From Flammulina velutipes (taxonomy: Eukaryota > Basidiomycota > Agaricomycetes > Agaricales > Physalacriaceae): 64,000 nt of DNA. The notes under the pieces are model-generated. The model saw nothing but the letters and a program-made list of their open reading frames with translations. It made no database searches and was not told the DNA's origin. A program made the translations under genes and the position numbers. The stretch covers positions 1,798,001 to 1,862,000 of the forward strand of contig CM022372.1 in NCBI GenBank assembly GCA_011800155.1, read 5' to 3'. The stretch's first letter is position 1; each line of letters starts with the position of its first letter. This document shows, one piece after another, positions 19,349-26,210 of the stretch.

Positions 19349-19497
19349 GTCGTCGTCTAGACATTGTATAGGTCCTAGCACATCGTAGTACAAAGTCAAG
19401 GATGTTTGATGTCAGCTTCTGACCATCATCATCAGACCGAAATTCCGTAGGTCCTCTCAACACTGCTACATTGAATTGTATTCACGAAAAGCTAGGA

Positions 19498-20822
19498 ATG
19501 CTTCCTTCTATTGAAAACGACGATGGGAATAACAAAGTCTTTGCACAAAGGCCGCCAGTGGACGCCACTGTCTCCGCTGGCATTGAAAGGCTCCTGAAAA
19601 CGAACATACAGCCACTGGATATCGAAAGGACGCAGCTGGAGAATGCCTTTGTTCTACACAACGAATATGCAGCGAAGCTAGCGCAGAGGCAGGCCCAAGT
19701 CGACGCGGCAAGACGCGAACTTGAGGTCGAGTCTCGCGTTGTGCAAGAACACATGTTGAAAATAAAGACTATCCTGCATCCCGTTCGCAGCCTTCCTAAC
19801 GAAATCCTGTACGAGATACTCTTCCCCATTATTCATTCCGCCACACACACGCCATATGTACCACTGGGTGACGGTCCATCGACTTATCCAAGTAGCCTTG
19901 ATGTCAAAAGGCATCCCCTTTGGATTTTCTCTCACGTGTGCAAGCGGTGGCGCGACCATCTCCTTTCCCTACCCCGCCTCTGGTCATACATACACATCCC
20001 TCTGGCACGCAAGCCTCTCAACACTTTCAGATCCTCATTCCTTGTCCGACTACTCGTGTCACGTTCTGGAGACCATCCCCTCCACATATCCTTCCAGGAC
20101 GAAGATAAAATTCTTCAGAAATCCAGCTCCCTGTCCGAGATTTTTCTCCACTATTCGCGATGGAAAACACTCCAGCTTTGCACTCGTGCATCGTGTCTTC
20201 ACATCTTTGATTGTGGCTCGGAGGATTTCTCGATCCTCGAAAGCATCCAGTTTACAATGCATTCGCCATATCCTCCCGGATGGAGTGACGACTATGACGA
20301 GGATGAGGACGAGGAGGTGACGCATAATGATACCCTTGCTCCTTACCAGGGCTTCTCCCGCGCCCCAAACCTCCGACGAGTTCACCTTGATGACCCATGG
20401 GCCACCCTCGAACTATTACAAACTTTTCCCTGGAACCAAATAACCCACCTCTCCCTACTGTCTATCACATCTACCCAAGTCGCTAACCTGTTGCCATTTG
20501 CGCCTCAACTTGTCGACGCAAAATTTTGGCTTAAAGATGATGTGACGGAATCTTCCGACAGCTTCGTACACGACACACTCCGTTGCCTGACTGTGCGGTG
20601 CGCTAGCCATGTCGGGAATCTCATTGGTGCTCTGCGTCTACCCGCATGGGAATCTCTGTCTATAACCAAGTTGGAGGATGATATGTTCGACAAAATACCT
20701 CGCAGCAGGATCTATGAGACCTCCCGGTTAACATCATCTTCTAACACCTTCCAAGGGTTGGTGTCACCAACGGGATCGTGTGTCACATCACTATCTGTGG
20801 CGCTTGTGGCGGCGCTAATTGA
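19498..20822 (+). pseudogene. F-box protein gene, 5' part, disrupted by a copia insertion
   Basis: The open frame starts at ATG 19498 (MLPSIENDDGNNKVFAQRPP); the frame upstream has only a TTG. It has an N-terminal coiled coil (about residues 40-95, LENAFVLHNEYAAKLAQRQA), then an F-box typical of the large basidiomycete family: LHPVRSLPNEILYEILFPII and HPLWIFSHVCKRWRDHLLSL followed by PRLWSYIHI. An LRR-like region with an acidic DDYDEDEDEE insert follows. At 20823 the frame enters a retrotransposon LTR and stops 46 codons later, so the product loses its last 114 codons. The 3' half lies intact at 25866-26210 in the same frame. F-box proteins of this type are substrate adaptors of SCF ubiquitin ligases; the target is unknown. 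Confidence 0.88.
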
Positions 20823-21127
20823 TGTTGGAATTATTGAAGTACGAGTAGGAGCATGGACCGTGGGAACTTATGCACATAATCGGACAATTACCGTAGATGC
20901 GTCTCAGCGTTTAACCACCACGCTGAGACGTGAGTACTTCACTCATTTATGCACCGTATAGCTACTAATGCCCTTTCCTAGTTATAAGCTAACTAGTCTA
21001 TTCATCTAGGTATAATACAAGCGTTTAACCACCACGCTGAGACTTATAAGCTAACTAGTCTATTCATCTAGGACAACAACGTGTAAACGTCAACATACGG
21101 AACCGCGTCTTCGGCCTGCGTTCAACA
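20823..21127 (+). repeat. 5' LTR (305 bp)
   Basis: TGTTGG...CAACA. It contains two related sub-copies. Copy A is 20907-20929 plus 20982-21010, split by a 52-base segment. Copy B is 21021-21072 and has the same two parts directly joined. The 5' part of copy A also forms a 9-bp hairpin (GTCTCAGCG with CGCTGAGAC), which copy B lacks. Confidence 0.95.
20930..20981 (+). other. Intron-like 52-nt segment inside the LTR
   Basis: It begins GTGAGT, contains a branch-site match CTACTAAT (20962-20969) 12-13 bases before the end, then a CCCTTTCC pyrimidine tract, and ends TAG. This is a textbook fungal intron by length and signals. The second sub-copy in the same LTR (21021-21072) carries the flanking 23 and 29 bases joined exactly where this segment would be spliced out. 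The same segment occurs in the 3' LTR. That it is really spliced is inference. Confidence 0.7.
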
Positions 21128-21139
21128 GGTTATGGGCCC
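21128..21139 (+). promoter_or_regulatory. Primer-binding site, half-tRNA(iMet) type
   Basis: GGTTATGGGCCC follows the LTR with no spacer. It is complementary to the anticodon-arm region of initiator methionine tRNA (GGGCCCATAACC), the internal site used by Drosophila copia, which primes with a half-tRNA. The polyprotein ATG (21132-21134) lies within this site. Confidence 0.8.
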
Positions 21140-24100
21140 CGAGGTCGACTTAAATGCGACGACACAAGTCAAGGTCGTCAGTAGCCTCAAGCTCGACGAC
21201 GATGGTTCCAATTGGACGACATGGAGCGAAAAGATCCTGACGAAGATACGGGCTCACGGACTTGGACGACACATACGCTACGACGTCCCTCCGCCTCCAA
21301 TCCCTGTCTACAAAGACGACAAAATCTATCACCCCGACGACCAAAAGGAAGTCAGCGGCACGACCGCGGAGTGCATGGAACTCGTTTACGACAAATGGGA
21401 AACAAACGAGGCGAAAATCAAGACGTACATCTACGAGTCAGTCAGTAACACGACGTTCAACAACATCAAGCGCAGCGGGTCAGCCCACAAGACCTGGATG
21501 AAGCTCGAAGAGCTCCAGACGCAGAAGGGCGACATCGTACGCGAGCACCTGCTTACCCAACTTGGGAACATGCACTGTGCCGACGACGACGACATGCGCG
21601 CTCACCTGAGCAAGATGACGAACATTCGCGAACGAATCGAGGGCATGGGCATGACCATCCCCGACGTGCAATTCGTGTCGATGATCCAGAAGTCCCTCCC
21701 GCTCCGATATAAACCGACCCAAATCTCACTCTCTAATGCCACCCGTGTCGTAAAGACAACCCTCACCTCCGAAGTCCTCATGCAGGCGCTCACCGAATGC
21801 TACGACGAGAACTGCCAGGACGCGAAGACGTCCGAAAATCTCGCGCTCTCGGCGTCGTCGAAGGGAGGTAGCTCGGTGCAGTGTACCAACCCCAACTGCA
21901 AAGGAACCGGGCACACGAAGGAGAATTGCTGGAAGAAAGGTGGCGGCAAGGAGGGTCAGAGTCCATGGGCGAAAGCGAAGAAGAAACGCGAGGAGCAGAA
22001 GCAGAACGGCAAAGGGAAAGGCAAGGCAGGAGCAGCCATCGGAGATTCCGACGAGTCCGAAACCGAGTCCACCCATATCGCCGTAGCCGCCTGTATTGAA
22101 GATGACCACCCTAACGTGGCAATGCACATCAGTTCCCTTTACGACGAAGAGTGCAAGGCGCTCGTGTCTGACGGTTTCCTTGTTGATGCACTTCTTGACA
22201 GTGGCGCCTCTAGTACTTTCTCTCCCGAACGTGATCGCTTTTCTAATCTAGTCGACATCACTCATAAGCCTATCACTTCCTCCAATGGACAAGTGATTTA
22301 TGCGGTCGCTCGTGGTGACTTGACTGTCCCAATGCCGACGGGCAGAAAGAAGTCGACGTCGACGGTGACAATCCGCGGCGCGTTCTATGCCCCAAAGATC
22401 GCTTATACACTCATTTCACTATCTCAGCTCAGTCGCAGCGGAATCCGCATCGACATTGATCCTACCACTCGCACAATGTCTCTTCACTCGCCTGGTCCTA
22501 AATCACACATTTTCGCTCGTATTCCTGAACGGCGCGGCCTATATCCCGTCTATCTGTCTGGTGCTCCTGTCCCAAAACGCAAGCCAGAAATCTCACTTGT
22601 TAGCGCGACGCAGCATGTATCGATTGACATGCTCCACCGAATATGCGGTCATCGAAACCACGCAGCTTTACGACGAATGTATCTAGACGGCCGCGTCCTG
22701 GGTATCAAACTTGATTTGAACTCGAAGCCATCTGTCTGCAAGACCTGCCCATTGGCGAAGGCGAAGCACTTACCTTTTCCAAAAGAGGGGAAGTACGAAT
22801 ATGTGGAAAAGACTGGCGACAAGATCGTTGTGGACCTAATGGGTCCCATGGAGGTTGCATCGATTAACGGAGCAAAATACGCCTGCACATTCCGCGATCT
22901 TCATAGCCGCGAGTCGAAAACCGAATACCTCAAAAAGAAATCGGAGGCGTTCAAGGCTTACAAGCACTACGAGGTCTGGATGAAGGTACAACGAGGGGTG
23001 GAGGTTATCAAAATCCTGGGCTCGGACCGAGGGGGAGAGTTTACCAGCGATGAGTTCAACAAACATCTCGCTGGGAAAGGCACTATCCGTCATCTGACGG
23101 TGCACGACTCCCCGCAGTCCAACGGTGTGGCAGAACGTGGAAACGGCTATCTCATGGACATGGCTCGGGCATTTCGCATCGAAGCCAGATTGCCGAAATT
23201 CCTGTGGGCTGAAGCTCACCGCCACGCTGAATGGGTCTCAAATCGGATTTCTACCAAAGCCATTCCCTCCGGAAAAACACCGCACGAAGTAGCCACCAAG
23301 TCGAAGCCGAACCTCTCCGTTCTACGCCCATGGGGTAGTCTATGCTGGATCAAGCTGAAAAAGCCTGGCAAGCTCAATGAGCAAGCTTTCGAGGTTCGTT
23401 TCGTTGGAGTCGACAATGAATCTAAAGGCTGGCGCGTCTATTGGCCTGGGCATAGGAAGGTTTCTGTCGAACGGGATGTGTACTTTTCGAAGTATGATCA
23501 ACACCCAGAGCCCTTGCTGTTCGAGGGGGAGGGAGAAAAAGCCGTGGCTGAAGACGTTGCCGATCCGCCAGTGGTCGACGAAGTTGTCGAACAGCCAGAG
23601 GCACCTCTACCAAAACCTATCATTCCAGCACCCATCACGACCACCATACCTCCTGCCGCCGTTGCGCCGCCTCCTGTCGCTCAACAGGAACCACCTCTAT
23701 CACCTCTATCACCTCTATCACCTCTCACTGAGTCGGATGAGGAAATTGAATCCATTCTTCCACGTCGCTCATCGCGCAAGGCAGCTCAACCTTCCGGAAC
23801 GTACACCGAACGCGATCTGCGAAAACGTCCCACGACAGCCGGATTTGCTGAGTTATTGGAATCCCTCATCGCTGAAGCTGACGACGACTTTTACGAACGG
23901 TCTATCGAACACGCTTTTTCCATGTTCACGGAGCCTATGTCACTCCGAGAAGCACTCAACGGCTCTGACAAGGACATCTGGACCGCGTCAATCCAGGACG
24001 AAATTCATCAATGCGAGAAGTTCGATACCTGGAGACTCATTGCTGCAGACGACGTTCCAAAGGGTACCAATCTAATTGGAACCCGTTTCGTGTTCCGTGT

Positions 24101-25535
24101 CAAGCGCAACGAGTACGGCGAGTTCGATCGTGCCAAATCTCGTCTGGTTGTTCGTGGCTTCTCCATGATCAAAGGTGTGGATTACTATGACAGCTACGCT
24201 CCCGTTGTTCGTCAATCTACCCTTCGCATCCTTCTCTCCTTCGCAGCCTCTCTCAACGCCGTCATCGACCAAGCAGATCTCAAAAATGCGTACCTCCATG
24301 CAGAGATCAAGGAAGACGTCTACATCACCTTCCCTTCGGAATGCGAACACATGTTCACCGTTCCCGCACATCTGCAGGGCAAGAAACGCGTTGGAAAGCT
24401 GAAGAAGGGCTTGTATGGCACCAAACAGGCTGGCCGCGGACTCTACAAGAAGCTGAAAACGACGTTCACCAGTTCTGGCTTCAAAGTCTGCACTGCCGAC
24501 GAAGCAGTTTTCTATTGCTTTTCGGGTGACGAATACATCATCGTTGCAGCTGCTACTGATGATTTCACCATCATAGCGAGCTCGCAAGACGTCGCCAACC
24601 AGTTCAAGCATGATCTCAGCAAGACGTTCGAGCTTGTTGATCTTGGACCCATTCATTGGCTCCTCGGTATGCAGATCACGCGCGACGTTGAAAAGCGAAC
24701 CATCAGCATCTGCCAGAAGGCCTACATCGAGACCCTAGAGCGAAGATTCCACATCGAGGACTCCAAATTCAATCCGCTGACGCCTATGGAAGAATCCATC
24801 CAACTTGACCCCAAATCCTCCGCCGTCTCATCTAACGCTCTTTCCAACAACGACAAAACTCTATATCGTGAACTTATAGGCTCTCTAATGTACGCCATGG
24901 TCGCATCTCGCCCTGATATTGCTTTTGCAATAGCTACTCTTTCCCAATACTTCGAAAATGCGACCGCCACACATCTCAAGGCAGCATTCCGGGTTCTTCA
25001 TTACCTTGTACGCACCAAGGATCTCAAACTTACCCTTGGCGGAAAGGATATCACCATACACGCCTACCACGACGCTTCTTTTGCATCCCAACCTGGCAGG
25101 AAGTCAATGTCCGGTTTCCTTCTATTTGTTGGAGAAGGTGCGGTCATGTGGACTTCAAAGAAGCAACCGCTGGTCACATTATCCTCTGGCGAAGCGGAGT
25201 ATGTTGGTCTTACCCCCGCGTCGACCAACGTCATTTGGCTTCACAAGCTATTGACCGACTTGGACCCCATCATCAAAGTCCCTTCTATCTATCCGGTCAA
25301 TCCTACAACTCTATACACGGACAGCGAGAACGCGATTGCGATTTCAAAAGACTCTGTCTTTCATGAACGCACCAAACACATCGGTGTTCGTTACCACTTC
25401 GTCCGGCAAGCGATTGAGATGGGAGATGTGGCACTGAAGTGGATTTCCACTGATCAGATGATAGCGGACGCGTTGACCAAGGCGCTAGGGCGAACCAAAT
25501 TCGTCTACTTTCGTGGTAAGCTCGGATTGCATTGA
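21132..25535 (+). CDS. Copia Gag-Pol polyprotein (1467 aa, intact)
   Basis: Single frame with no stop or frameshift. Order by approximate residue: Gag-like N-terminal region (1-240); zinc knuckle CTNPNCKGTGHTKENC (about 249-264), a CX4CX4HX4C variant; aspartic protease DALLDSGASSTF (about 352-363); pre-integrase HHCC zinc region (about 495-545, ending CKTCPLAKAKH); integrase core with DLMGPM, SDRGGEFTSDEF and SNGVAERGN (about 568-670); a proline-rich linker with a repeated SPL unit (about 850-865); reverse transcriptase with DLKNAYLHAEI (about 1048), KKGLYGTKQAGR and catalytic AATDDFTII (TDD in place of the usual VDD); RNase H with YHDASFASQ and LSSGEAEY (about 1315-1450). The start codon overlaps the primer-binding site. 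No separate gag frame is visible, so Gag must come from proteolysis or another route. Confidence 0.96.
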   Translation: MGPEVDLNATTQVKVVSSLKLDDDGSNWTTWSEKILTKIRAHGLGRHIRYDVPPPPIPVYKDDKIYHPDDQKEVSGTTAECMELVYDKWETNEAKIKTYIYESVSNTTFNNIKRSGSAHKTWMKLEELQTQKGDIVREHLLTQLGNMHCADDDDMRAHLSKMTNIRERIEGMGMTIPDVQFVSMIQKSLPLRYKPTQISLSNATRVVKTTLTSEVLMQALTECYDENCQDAKTSENLALSASSKGGSSVQCTNPNCKGTGHTKENCWKKGGGKEGQSPWAKAKKKREEQKQNGKGKGKAGAAIGDSDESETESTHIAVAACIEDDHPNVAMHISSLYDEECKALVSDGFLVDALLDSGASSTFSPERDRFSNLVDITHKPITSSNGQVIYAVARGDLTVPMPTGRKKSTSTVTIRGAFYAPKIAYTLISLSQLSRSGIRIDIDPTTRTMSLHSPGPKSHIFARIPERRGLYPVYLSGAPVPKRKPEISLVSATQHVSIDMLHRICGHRNHAALRRMYLDGRVLGIKLDLNSKPSVCKTCPLAKAKHLPFPKEGKYEYVEKTGDKIVVDLMGPMEVASINGAKYACTFRDLHSRESKTEYLKKKSEAFKAYKHYEVWMKVQRGVEVIKILGSDRGGEFTSDEFNKHLAGKGTIRHLTVHDSPQSNGVAERGNGYLMDMARAFRIEARLPKFLWAEAHRHAEWVSNRISTKAIPSGKTPHEVATKSKPNLSVLRPWGSLCWIKLKKPGKLNEQAFEVRFVGVDNESKGWRVYWPGHRKVSVERDVYFSKYDQHPEPLLFEGEGEKAVAEDVADPPVVDEVVEQPEAPLPKPIIPAPITTTIPPAAVAPPPVAQQEPPLSPLSPLSPLTESDEEIESILPRRSSRKAAQPSGTYTERDLRKRPTTAGFAELLESLIAEADDDFYERSIEHAFSMFTEPMSLREALNGSDKDIWTASIQDEIHQCEKFDTWRLIAADDVPKGTNLIGTRFVFRVKRNEYGEFDRAKSRLVVRGFSMIKGVDYYDSYAPVVRQSTLRILLSFAASLNAVIDQADLKNAYLHAEIKEDVYITFPSECEHMFTVPAHLQGKKRVGKLKKGLYGTKQAGRGLYKKLKTTFTSSGFKVCTADEAVFYCFSGDEYIIVAAATDDFTIIASSQDVANQFKHDLSKTFELVDLGPIHWLLGMQITRDVEKRTISICQKAYIETLERRFHIEDSKFNPLTPMEESIQLDPKSSAVSSNALSNNDKTLYRELIGSLMYAMVASRPDIAFAIATLSQYFENATATHLKAAFRVLHYLVRTKDLKLTLGGKDITIHAYHDASFASQPGRKSMSGFLLFVGEGAVMWTSKKQPLVTLSSGEAEYVGLTPASTNVIWLHKLLTDLDPIIKVPSIYPVNPTTLYTDSENAIAISKDSVFHERTKHIGVRYHFVRQAIEMGDVALKWISTDQMIADALTKALGRTKFVYFRGKLGLH

Positions 25536-25551
25536 CGTCCGTGCTCCACTC

Positions 25552-25560
25552 GAGGGGGAG
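25552..25560 (+). promoter_or_regulatory. Polypurine tract
   Basis: The purine run GAGGGGGAG ends directly at the first base of the 3' LTR (25561). This is the expected primer site for plus-strand DNA synthesis. Confidence 0.8.
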
Positions 25561-25865
25561 TGTTGGAATTATTGAAGTACGAGTAGGAGCATGGACCGTG
25601 GGAACTTATGCACATAATCGGACAATTACCGTAGATGCGTCTCAGCGTTTAACCACCACGCTGAGACGTGAGTACTTCACTCATTTATGCACCGTATAGC
25701 TACTAATGCCCTTTCCTAGTTATAAGCTAACTAGTCTATTCATCTAGGTATAATACAAGCGTTTAACCACCACGCTGAGACTTATAAGCTAACTAGTCTA
25801 TTCATCTAGGACAACAACGTGTAAACGTCAACATACGGAACCGCGTCTTCGGCCTGCGTTCAACA
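25561..25865 (+). repeat. 3' LTR (305 bp)
   Basis: Same length as the 5' LTR and identical to it by eye, including the intron-like segment and the joined sub-copy. It is followed by the second ATTGA (25866-25870). Confidence 0.95.
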
Positions 25866-26210
25866 ATTGACACCATAACTACCTTGCACAGTCTCAGCGC
25901 GTTGCTGGAGAGCACGCCAGTCTTGGATTCGTTGTCAATACGCTTGATTGGGCATGAAAGCATGGACGAAATCTGCTTGTTACTGCAGTCGACAAATCTT
26001 GTTCCGCGACTCAATCAATTGACAATATGGGCGACCCATGGGGCGAAAATTTCGGATATCCTGATTGGGATGATGGAGTTGAGGCGAGGGAAACTGAAAG
26101 ACGTTGACCTACGTGGCGTGTCGAAAGCTCCGGATGCTGTTCTCGCACAGCTCGATCAATTCGTGGAAGATGGGATGACCTGTAAGATATCCCACATGAA
26201 CCGATTTTAG
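25866..26210 (+). pseudogene. F-box protein gene, 3' part (severed C-terminus)
   Basis: It continues the frame of 19498-20822 exactly: with one ATTGA copy counted once, the codons read through ...AALIDT. It encodes 114 residues of leucine-rich-repeat-like sequence (TLHSLSALLESTPVLDSLSI, LLQSTNLVPRLNQLTIWATH) and ends KISHMNRF with TAG at 26208-26210. It has no start of its own in this position, and no damage beyond the insertion. Confidence 0.85.

Follow-up and report, generated by a model that had tools for sequence, protein, structure and literature searches.

Putative introns and an intron-free copy of the leader within the long terminal repeats of five retrotransposon families of Flammulina velutipes

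The window, a stretch of 64,000 nucleotides on contig 5 of the Flammulina velutipes genome surveyed here (38.1 Mb, 23 contigs), contains a Ty1/copia retrotransposon, hereafter F1, recognised by RVT_2, a copia-type gag, an integrase placed before the reverse transcriptase (RT) and a pair of long terminal repeats (LTRs) (Table 1). By eye, the target repeat ATTGA flanks the element on either side. RVT_2 (PF07727, 157.9 bits) and the copia-type gag (PF14223, 71.8 bits) scored above their cut-offs, and the rve match (24.4 bits) lies under its cut-off of 32.6; the order of the domains, integrase rve at 561-651 and then RVT_2 at 965-1212, is that of copia. The primer binding site is one that we take to be of the half-tRNA-iMet type of copia, and the ATG of gag (21132) falls within it. 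Among the homologues listed for the Pol protein, Mycena chlorophos is the first entry named by organism. The element splits a host reading frame (a 496-aa ORF running into the LTR; flanks 19471-20822 and 25866-26210), which by eye may be of the F-box/LRR type.

Table 1. Parts of the F1 element, in window coordinates; exons, introns and transcription start are putative.
Feature	Position	Strand	Basis or remark
Ty1/copia element F1	20823-25865	+	LTR pair, target repeat, primer site, polypurine tract, one ORF
5' LTR, 305 bp, TGTTGG..TTCAACA	20823-21127	+	identical to 3' LTR
Weak TATA-like CATAAT, -31 to -26 of putative start	20875-20880	+	by eye
Predicted hairpin over the GU of the first 5' splice site	arms 20899-20910, 20920-20931	+	minimum-energy fold
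E1, 24 nt; putative transcription start A 20906	20906-20929	+	left edge of exact repeat, GTCTC[A]GC
Putative intron 1, 52 nt, GTGAGT..CTAAT..TAG	20930-20981	+	missing from second copy, no base gained or lost
E2, 28 nt	20982-21009	+	exact repeat
Putative intron 2, 62 nt, GTATAA..CTAAC..TAG; weak 5' site	21010-21071	+	removal makes leader equal to E1'E2'-U5
E1'E2', exactly fused spliced copy; proposed R and landing site of strong-stop cDNA	21020-21071	+	identical to E1+E2
U5, 56 nt, without ATG	21072-21127	+	
Primer binding site GGTTATGGGCCCC	21128-21140	+	
gag-pol ORF, 1467 aa	21132-25535	+	Retrotran_gag_2, rve, SH3, RVT_2
Polypurine tract CTCGAGGGGGAG	25549-25560	+	by eye
3' LTR, 305 bp	25561-25865	+	same parts, offset +4738
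3' LTR: E1	25644-25667	+	identical LTR
3' LTR: putative intron 1	25668-25719	+	identical LTR
3' LTR: E2	25720-25747	+	identical LTR
3' LTR: putative intron 2	25748-25809	+	identical LTR
3' LTR: E1'E2'	25758-25809	+	identical LTR
3' LTR: U5	25810-25865	+	identical LTR

The F1 family consists of five elements and one solo LTR in the genome. Five-base target repeats were seen by eye also at the other four elements and at the solo LTR. Three of these four are identical to the window element over 5043 bp, and the fourth, on C2, is 291 bp shorter in pol, with identical LTRs and an open frame; its deletion is in frame and lies at the equivalent of position 22986. A splice-like loss was considered for these 291 bp and rejected, since the segment ends GT..AA and is thus not an intron.

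A reading made from the sequence only had reported that, in each LTR, two blocks occur twice, that in the first copy they are separated by a 52-base segment GTGAGT..TAG (20930-20981), and that in the second copy they are exactly fused. All of this was recovered: the first block, GCGTTTAACCACCACGCTGAGAC, is found at 20907, 21021, 25645, and 25759, and the second block, TTATAAGCTAACTAGTCTATTCATCTAGG, at 20982, 21044, 25720, and 25782. The edges were refined to 24 and 28 nt: the first block gains an A that is found ahead of each of its copies, and the second block gives up its last G, which fits better as the G of a second GT; the junction of the 52-nt segment has a single possible placement. The two LTRs of the window element share the structure, as had also been stated, and the genome-wide search for LTRs with the first copy, the second, or both, which that reading had proposed, found both copies in 11/11 F1 LTRs, all identical over 305 bp. 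The earlier account had not mentioned a second putative intron, a start-site motif where the repeat begins, or a hairpin. This second segment encloses a spacer (21010-21019) together with the fused copy E1'E2'. Both candidate introns of F1 have GT..AG ends, a host-like length and a branch motif, the 5' site of the second being weak.

The same layout, with different letters, was found in five families of the genome, the copia families F1 to F4 and the gypsy family F5. In F2, the LTR (221 bp) has an E1 of 27 nt, a putative intron of 48 nt (GTACGT..CTAAT..CCTAG) and an E2 of 17 nt, followed by GTAATGCATA and then by the fused copy with ACAG at its end. The F4 LTR (300 bp, with TATAAATA) is built alike, with an E1 of 29 nt, a putative intron of 52 nt (GTACGT..GTAG), an E2 of 24 nt, and then GTAATTCAC and the fused copy ending in ATAG. 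In the other two families, the second copy (E') lies in a single segment: 54 nt, GTATGT..[E'] with AAG at the end, in the 206-bp LTR of F3, which is identical at either end of an element of ~25 kb on C6 with the target repeat AGTCC; and 58 nt, GTACAT..[E'] with GAAG at the end, in the 237-bp LTR of F5. The two LTRs of one F5 element are 99.6% alike over 246 aligned bases, and the F5 block gave 65 matches (with at most 3 mismatches), which form 32 pairs, every pair 58 bp apart, and one single. F5 belongs to Ty3/gypsy, as the H2C2 integrase zinc finger (PF17921) lies within the element, at C1:1051201 (between LTRs at 1047464 and 1052861) and at C2:371119 (between 367385 and 372811). An F5 element is inserted inside E1 of the F4 3' LTR (from C10:2304369 onward), and an extra copy of the F4 E1 at C10:2316858 lies, by arithmetic, at the expected E1' position of the interrupted LTR. 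Older F5 blocks at C3:2735440-2735519 and C6:1637537-1637616 show G-to-A differences from the common form, with a RIP-like look, and in them E and E' differ, as expected after insertion.

The families came to light in different ways. F1 was taken from the sequence-only reading, F2 and F3 from an inspection of LTRs and repeats that was blind to splice motifs, and the block on the 3' side of F4 and the F5 family were found by eye and with a detector flagging GT..AG-bounded repeats (exact repeats of at least 16, 40-220 bp apart, in 12 sequences and on both strands). In these 12 sequences, with unflagged repeats also counted, the flagged repeats belong to the five families without exception. RVT_2 matched 11 times in the genome: five F1 elements, one each of C9, F3 (C6), F2 (C7), and F4 (C10); the remaining two are fragments that contain stops and whose LTR limits could not be set. 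Thus, four of the five copia families with delimited LTRs have the layout; it is absent from C9, which has a plain LTR. A non-autonomous family present in three places has a 186-bp LTR without internal repeat and the same primer site as F1, and GGTTATGGG of this site stands directly after the LTRs of F2, F3, and C9 as well. Two further sequences sampled for other gypsy LTRs held no recognisable LTR, and F5 is the sole family examined among the 137 H2C2 matches.

The RT stretches of the four copia families with the layout share 33-38% pairwise identity. In the RT tree, whose long branches make the places unsure, F1 and F4 fall in separately supported groups with database proteins, F2 joins C9 at 89/91 (not starred), and the position of F3 is not resolved. 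As for relatives in other collections, viral_contigs yielded no locus with the protein and one with an alignment, and genome_contigs yielded 19 loci, all with prokaryote-labelled titles. Among these 20 loci, none of the six direct-repeat pairs (at least 80 bp long and more than 1.5 kb apart, in five loci) has the layout, an absence that says little because none of the loci is labelled fungal.

A common rule describes the five LTRs. In all of them, the repeat begins at an A after pyrimidines (GTCTC[A] in F1, CTCTC[A] in F2, CCTTT[A] in F3, TCCTC[A] in F4, and TCTTT[A] in F5) and ends in AG, a GT follows the first copy directly, and the second copy is enclosed in a further GT..AG segment. When the GT..AG segments are removed from the left edge of the repeat on, the resulting leader is letter-identical to the end of the LTR (E' and U5) in 5/5 families. 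The first exons would measure 24, 27, 22, 29, and 23 nt in F1 to F5. The repeat extends 2 nt (F3) and 1 nt (F4) to the left of the assumed start, and for this reason the starts of these two families are set by analogy. The sequence-only reading had explained the exact copy by splicing followed by a template jump in reverse transcription. The intron-like segment, the exact spliced copy and a part for reverse transcription are supported, and a single past jump that left no more than a record of splicing is not supported, both because the layout recurs in F2-F4 and in the gypsy family F5 and because, in 5/5 families, the second copy lies inside a further GT..AG segment, which a one-time duplication does not require. 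A fossil of one accident, in which cDNA of spliced RNA jumped to an unspliced 3' LTR and left its R copies uncollapsed and with no present function, would account for the order of the copies (intron copy upstream, spliced copy downstream) and for the exact junction; set against five diverged families, and leaving unexplained the GT after the first copy and the AG ending the second in every one of them, it seems to us improbable.

The borders of the segments also bear on how these may have arisen. The inner introns of F1, F2, and F4 are GT..AG at edges that allow 1, 2, and 3 placements, and with a chance of 0.0578 x 0.0617 per placement (from the GT and AG frequencies of the window) the three together amount to ~3e-7. 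For the outer segment, GT..AG coincides with the right edge of the repeat in all five families (with 1 nt of play in F1 and F4); here, only this coincidence counts, since excision would yield one and the same product from every position within the repeat. Chance deletion was considered as origin of the segments, and it is not credible given these GT..AG borders. In models of intron origin, tandem duplication at an AG/GT site can give rise to an intron, and splicing it out returns the earlier sequence. One copy of a duplicated LTR block might have acquired its introns in this manner, and direct repeats near the splice borders of 213 introns, with a mean of 11.4 bp, are reported in PMC11782384. 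In such a case the tandem unit should run on beyond the 3' splice site with a copy of the 5' end of the intron, and its right extension is 0 or 1 nt in 5/5 families; nor would intron gain bring the left edge to a start-site motif in each of the five families. Recurrence and the enclosing GT..AG segment likewise disfavour the reverse order, gain of an intron by one copy, which the earlier reading had left open. Intron gain could be the first origin of the layout; as an account of the present LTRs, we give it slightly less credit than the fossil.

The putative introns resemble those of the host in size and, for the most part, in their 5' sites. Their lengths are 52/62 nt in F1, 48/54 in F2, 54 in F3, 52/62 in F4, and 58 in F5 (range 48-62). 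In the host part of the window, without the element, segments of the form GTRNGT..CTRAY..YAG number 21 at 46-51 nt, 11 at 52-57, and 5 at 58-63, against simulated counts of 1.9, 1.1, and 1.1. Sites such as GTGAGT, GTACGT, and GTATGT fit the host. Each of the three families with two introns has a weak 5' site at intron 2 (GTATAA, GTAATG, and GTAATT), and in F1 (21010-21019) and F2 partial complementarity between this site and the first bases of E2 was seen by eye. In F4, neither intron has a CTRAY/TTAAY branch motif. A clear TATA-like sequence is present in F4 only, where TATAAATA lies 34 bases upstream of the putative start. This position suits the first copy and, together with the GT..AG ends of 8/8 segments at borders defined by the repeat, speaks against a true start in the second copy (E1'), by which the first copy would be U3, perhaps a duplicated promoter element, and the splice-like signals unused; the inverted repeats at the first copy could then be protein sites, and of the alternatives weighed here we find this the least credible.

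We consider it probable that the leader is spliced and that the second copy is a built-in R for spliced strong-stop cDNA, so that the first transfer rebuilds the introns and rewrites E'. From the letters of one genome, we infer a transcription start, splicing, and a strand transfer that would act as follows. The LTR would encode a transcribed leader that contains one or two spliceosomal introns, along with a ready-made copy of the spliced leader. In F1, the RNA would start at E1 and, once introns 1 and 2 are spliced out, begin with E1-E2-U5, and the strong-stop cDNA made on it would be E1-E2-U5 as well. The uninterrupted match for this cDNA in the 3' LTR of the RNA would be E1'E2' with U5, where it would anneal, and extension past E1'E2' would copy the spacer, E2, intron 1, E1, and U3. 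In this way each daughter LTR would regain the introns, which would survive a spliced template, and E1'E2' would be rewritten from the spliced leader in every cycle. The introns probably serve intron-dependent accumulation or export of the mRNA. In F1, their removal would also strip two upstream ATGs, both in intron 1, and the spliced E-U5 has none; F2 is an exception, as an upstream ATG stays in its spliced leader.

Provided that the RNA reached the end of the LTR, the uninterrupted match of the spliced leader would be 22-29 nt at E and 53-108 nt at E'-U5. The first transfer should therefore go preferentially to E', after which the 3' LTR would supply the introns for copying. Rewriting of E' from spliced E in each cycle would also keep the copies identical; within a family, the identity of E and E' cannot show this, because the pairs are young and their two LTRs differ little or not at all. 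The deep divergence of the families, one of them gypsy, implies a layout that is old and maintained or one that evolved repeatedly, and either case argues for function.

A hairpin at the first 5' splice site may add to this scheme. We folded the 50 nt ahead of the first 5' splice site and used 500 shuffles and 1305 host GT sites as controls. The minimum-energy fold pairs the G of the GT with upstream bases in 5/5 families, at -21.7, -17.7, -28.4, -23.9, and -11.9 kcal/mol for F1 to F5. Energies equally low were reached by 0, 15, 0, 0, and 9 of the 500 shuffles and by 11, 63, 3, 6, and 488 of the 1305 host sites, so that the energy of F5 is not unusual; the number of pairs running into the GU was matched by 137, 84, 11, 109, and 84 host sites. 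The upstream arm lies ahead of the putative start, wholly in F3 and in the main stem of F5 and mostly in F1, F2, and F4, and thus the hairpin would be complete only in the 3' LTR. Folds beginning at the putative start reach only -2.6 to -5.7 kcal/mol. In the predicted folds, the 5' site of F2, apart from its first G, is open in the leader and becomes closed when the full LTR is folded, that of F3 changes partially, and that of F1 is paired in the 5' leader as well as in the full LTR. The hairpin, complete where the RNA contains U3, may mask the first 5' splice site of the 3' LTR, a suggestion toward which these models leave us rather more doubtful than convinced.

Taken more broadly, the layout might be a general strategy of retroelements, in which LTR introns are reinstalled through an encoded spliced leader and a hairpin conceals the splice site in the 3' LTR alone, in both superfamilies; we put this forward tentatively, finding the balance close and tipped slightly toward doubt. 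The layout would then occur in both LTR superfamilies because the mRNAs of such fungi need introns to accumulate. Most genes tested in Cryptococcus are reported to give far less mRNA without introns (PMC3744415), and transgene expression in Armillaria to require an intron (PMC4935854). If the proposal is true, a retroelement could use splicing-dependent expression and keep its introns, the R region would gain a new role, and the start and splice sites would be readable from the LTR itself. It would also hint at what lets such elements flourish in hosts that accumulate little intronless RNA.

A search of 5.39 million open papers gave no recognised description of an LTR intron with a spliced duplicate. 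A match in PMC5542766 proved to be an engineered lentiviral vector named LTR1.20, and R regions and strand transfer are treated in PMC12789967. Apart from their LTRs, the F1-F5 elements are ordinary by sequence, and it is the replication step that we infer. F1 resembles Ty1/copia elements in its LTR pair, target repeat, primer site, polypurine tract, gag, and integrase before RT, and differs from them by the putative introns and the spliced leader copy in its LTR; the LTR of C9, a copia family of this genome, is ordinary. HIV-2/SIV have a leader intron within R-U5, in the transcribed LTR as proposed here, but their unspliced RNA is the template and they are not known to have a built-in spliced copy. 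The classical demonstration that retrotransposition passes through RNA is the loss of an intron, which retroelements as a rule are unable to restore. In the direct-repeat-flanked introns of PMC11782384, the repeats measure 4-30 bp (mean 11.4) and lie at the splice borders, whereas in F1-F5 the repeat is the whole putative spliced leader, from the putative start to the splice site, exact over 22-53 nt and placed in an LTR. The plant LTR elements EVADE (copia) and Ogre use splicing, as F1-F5 would, with alternative splicing giving subgenomic RNAs, and an intron with a spliced copy in the LTR is not described for them in the part of PMC12786077 available. In the same source, spliced RNA of a marked Ty with an artificial intron templates retrotransposition and the new copy loses the intron, whereas the layout of F1-F5 would restore its introns (PMC12786077).
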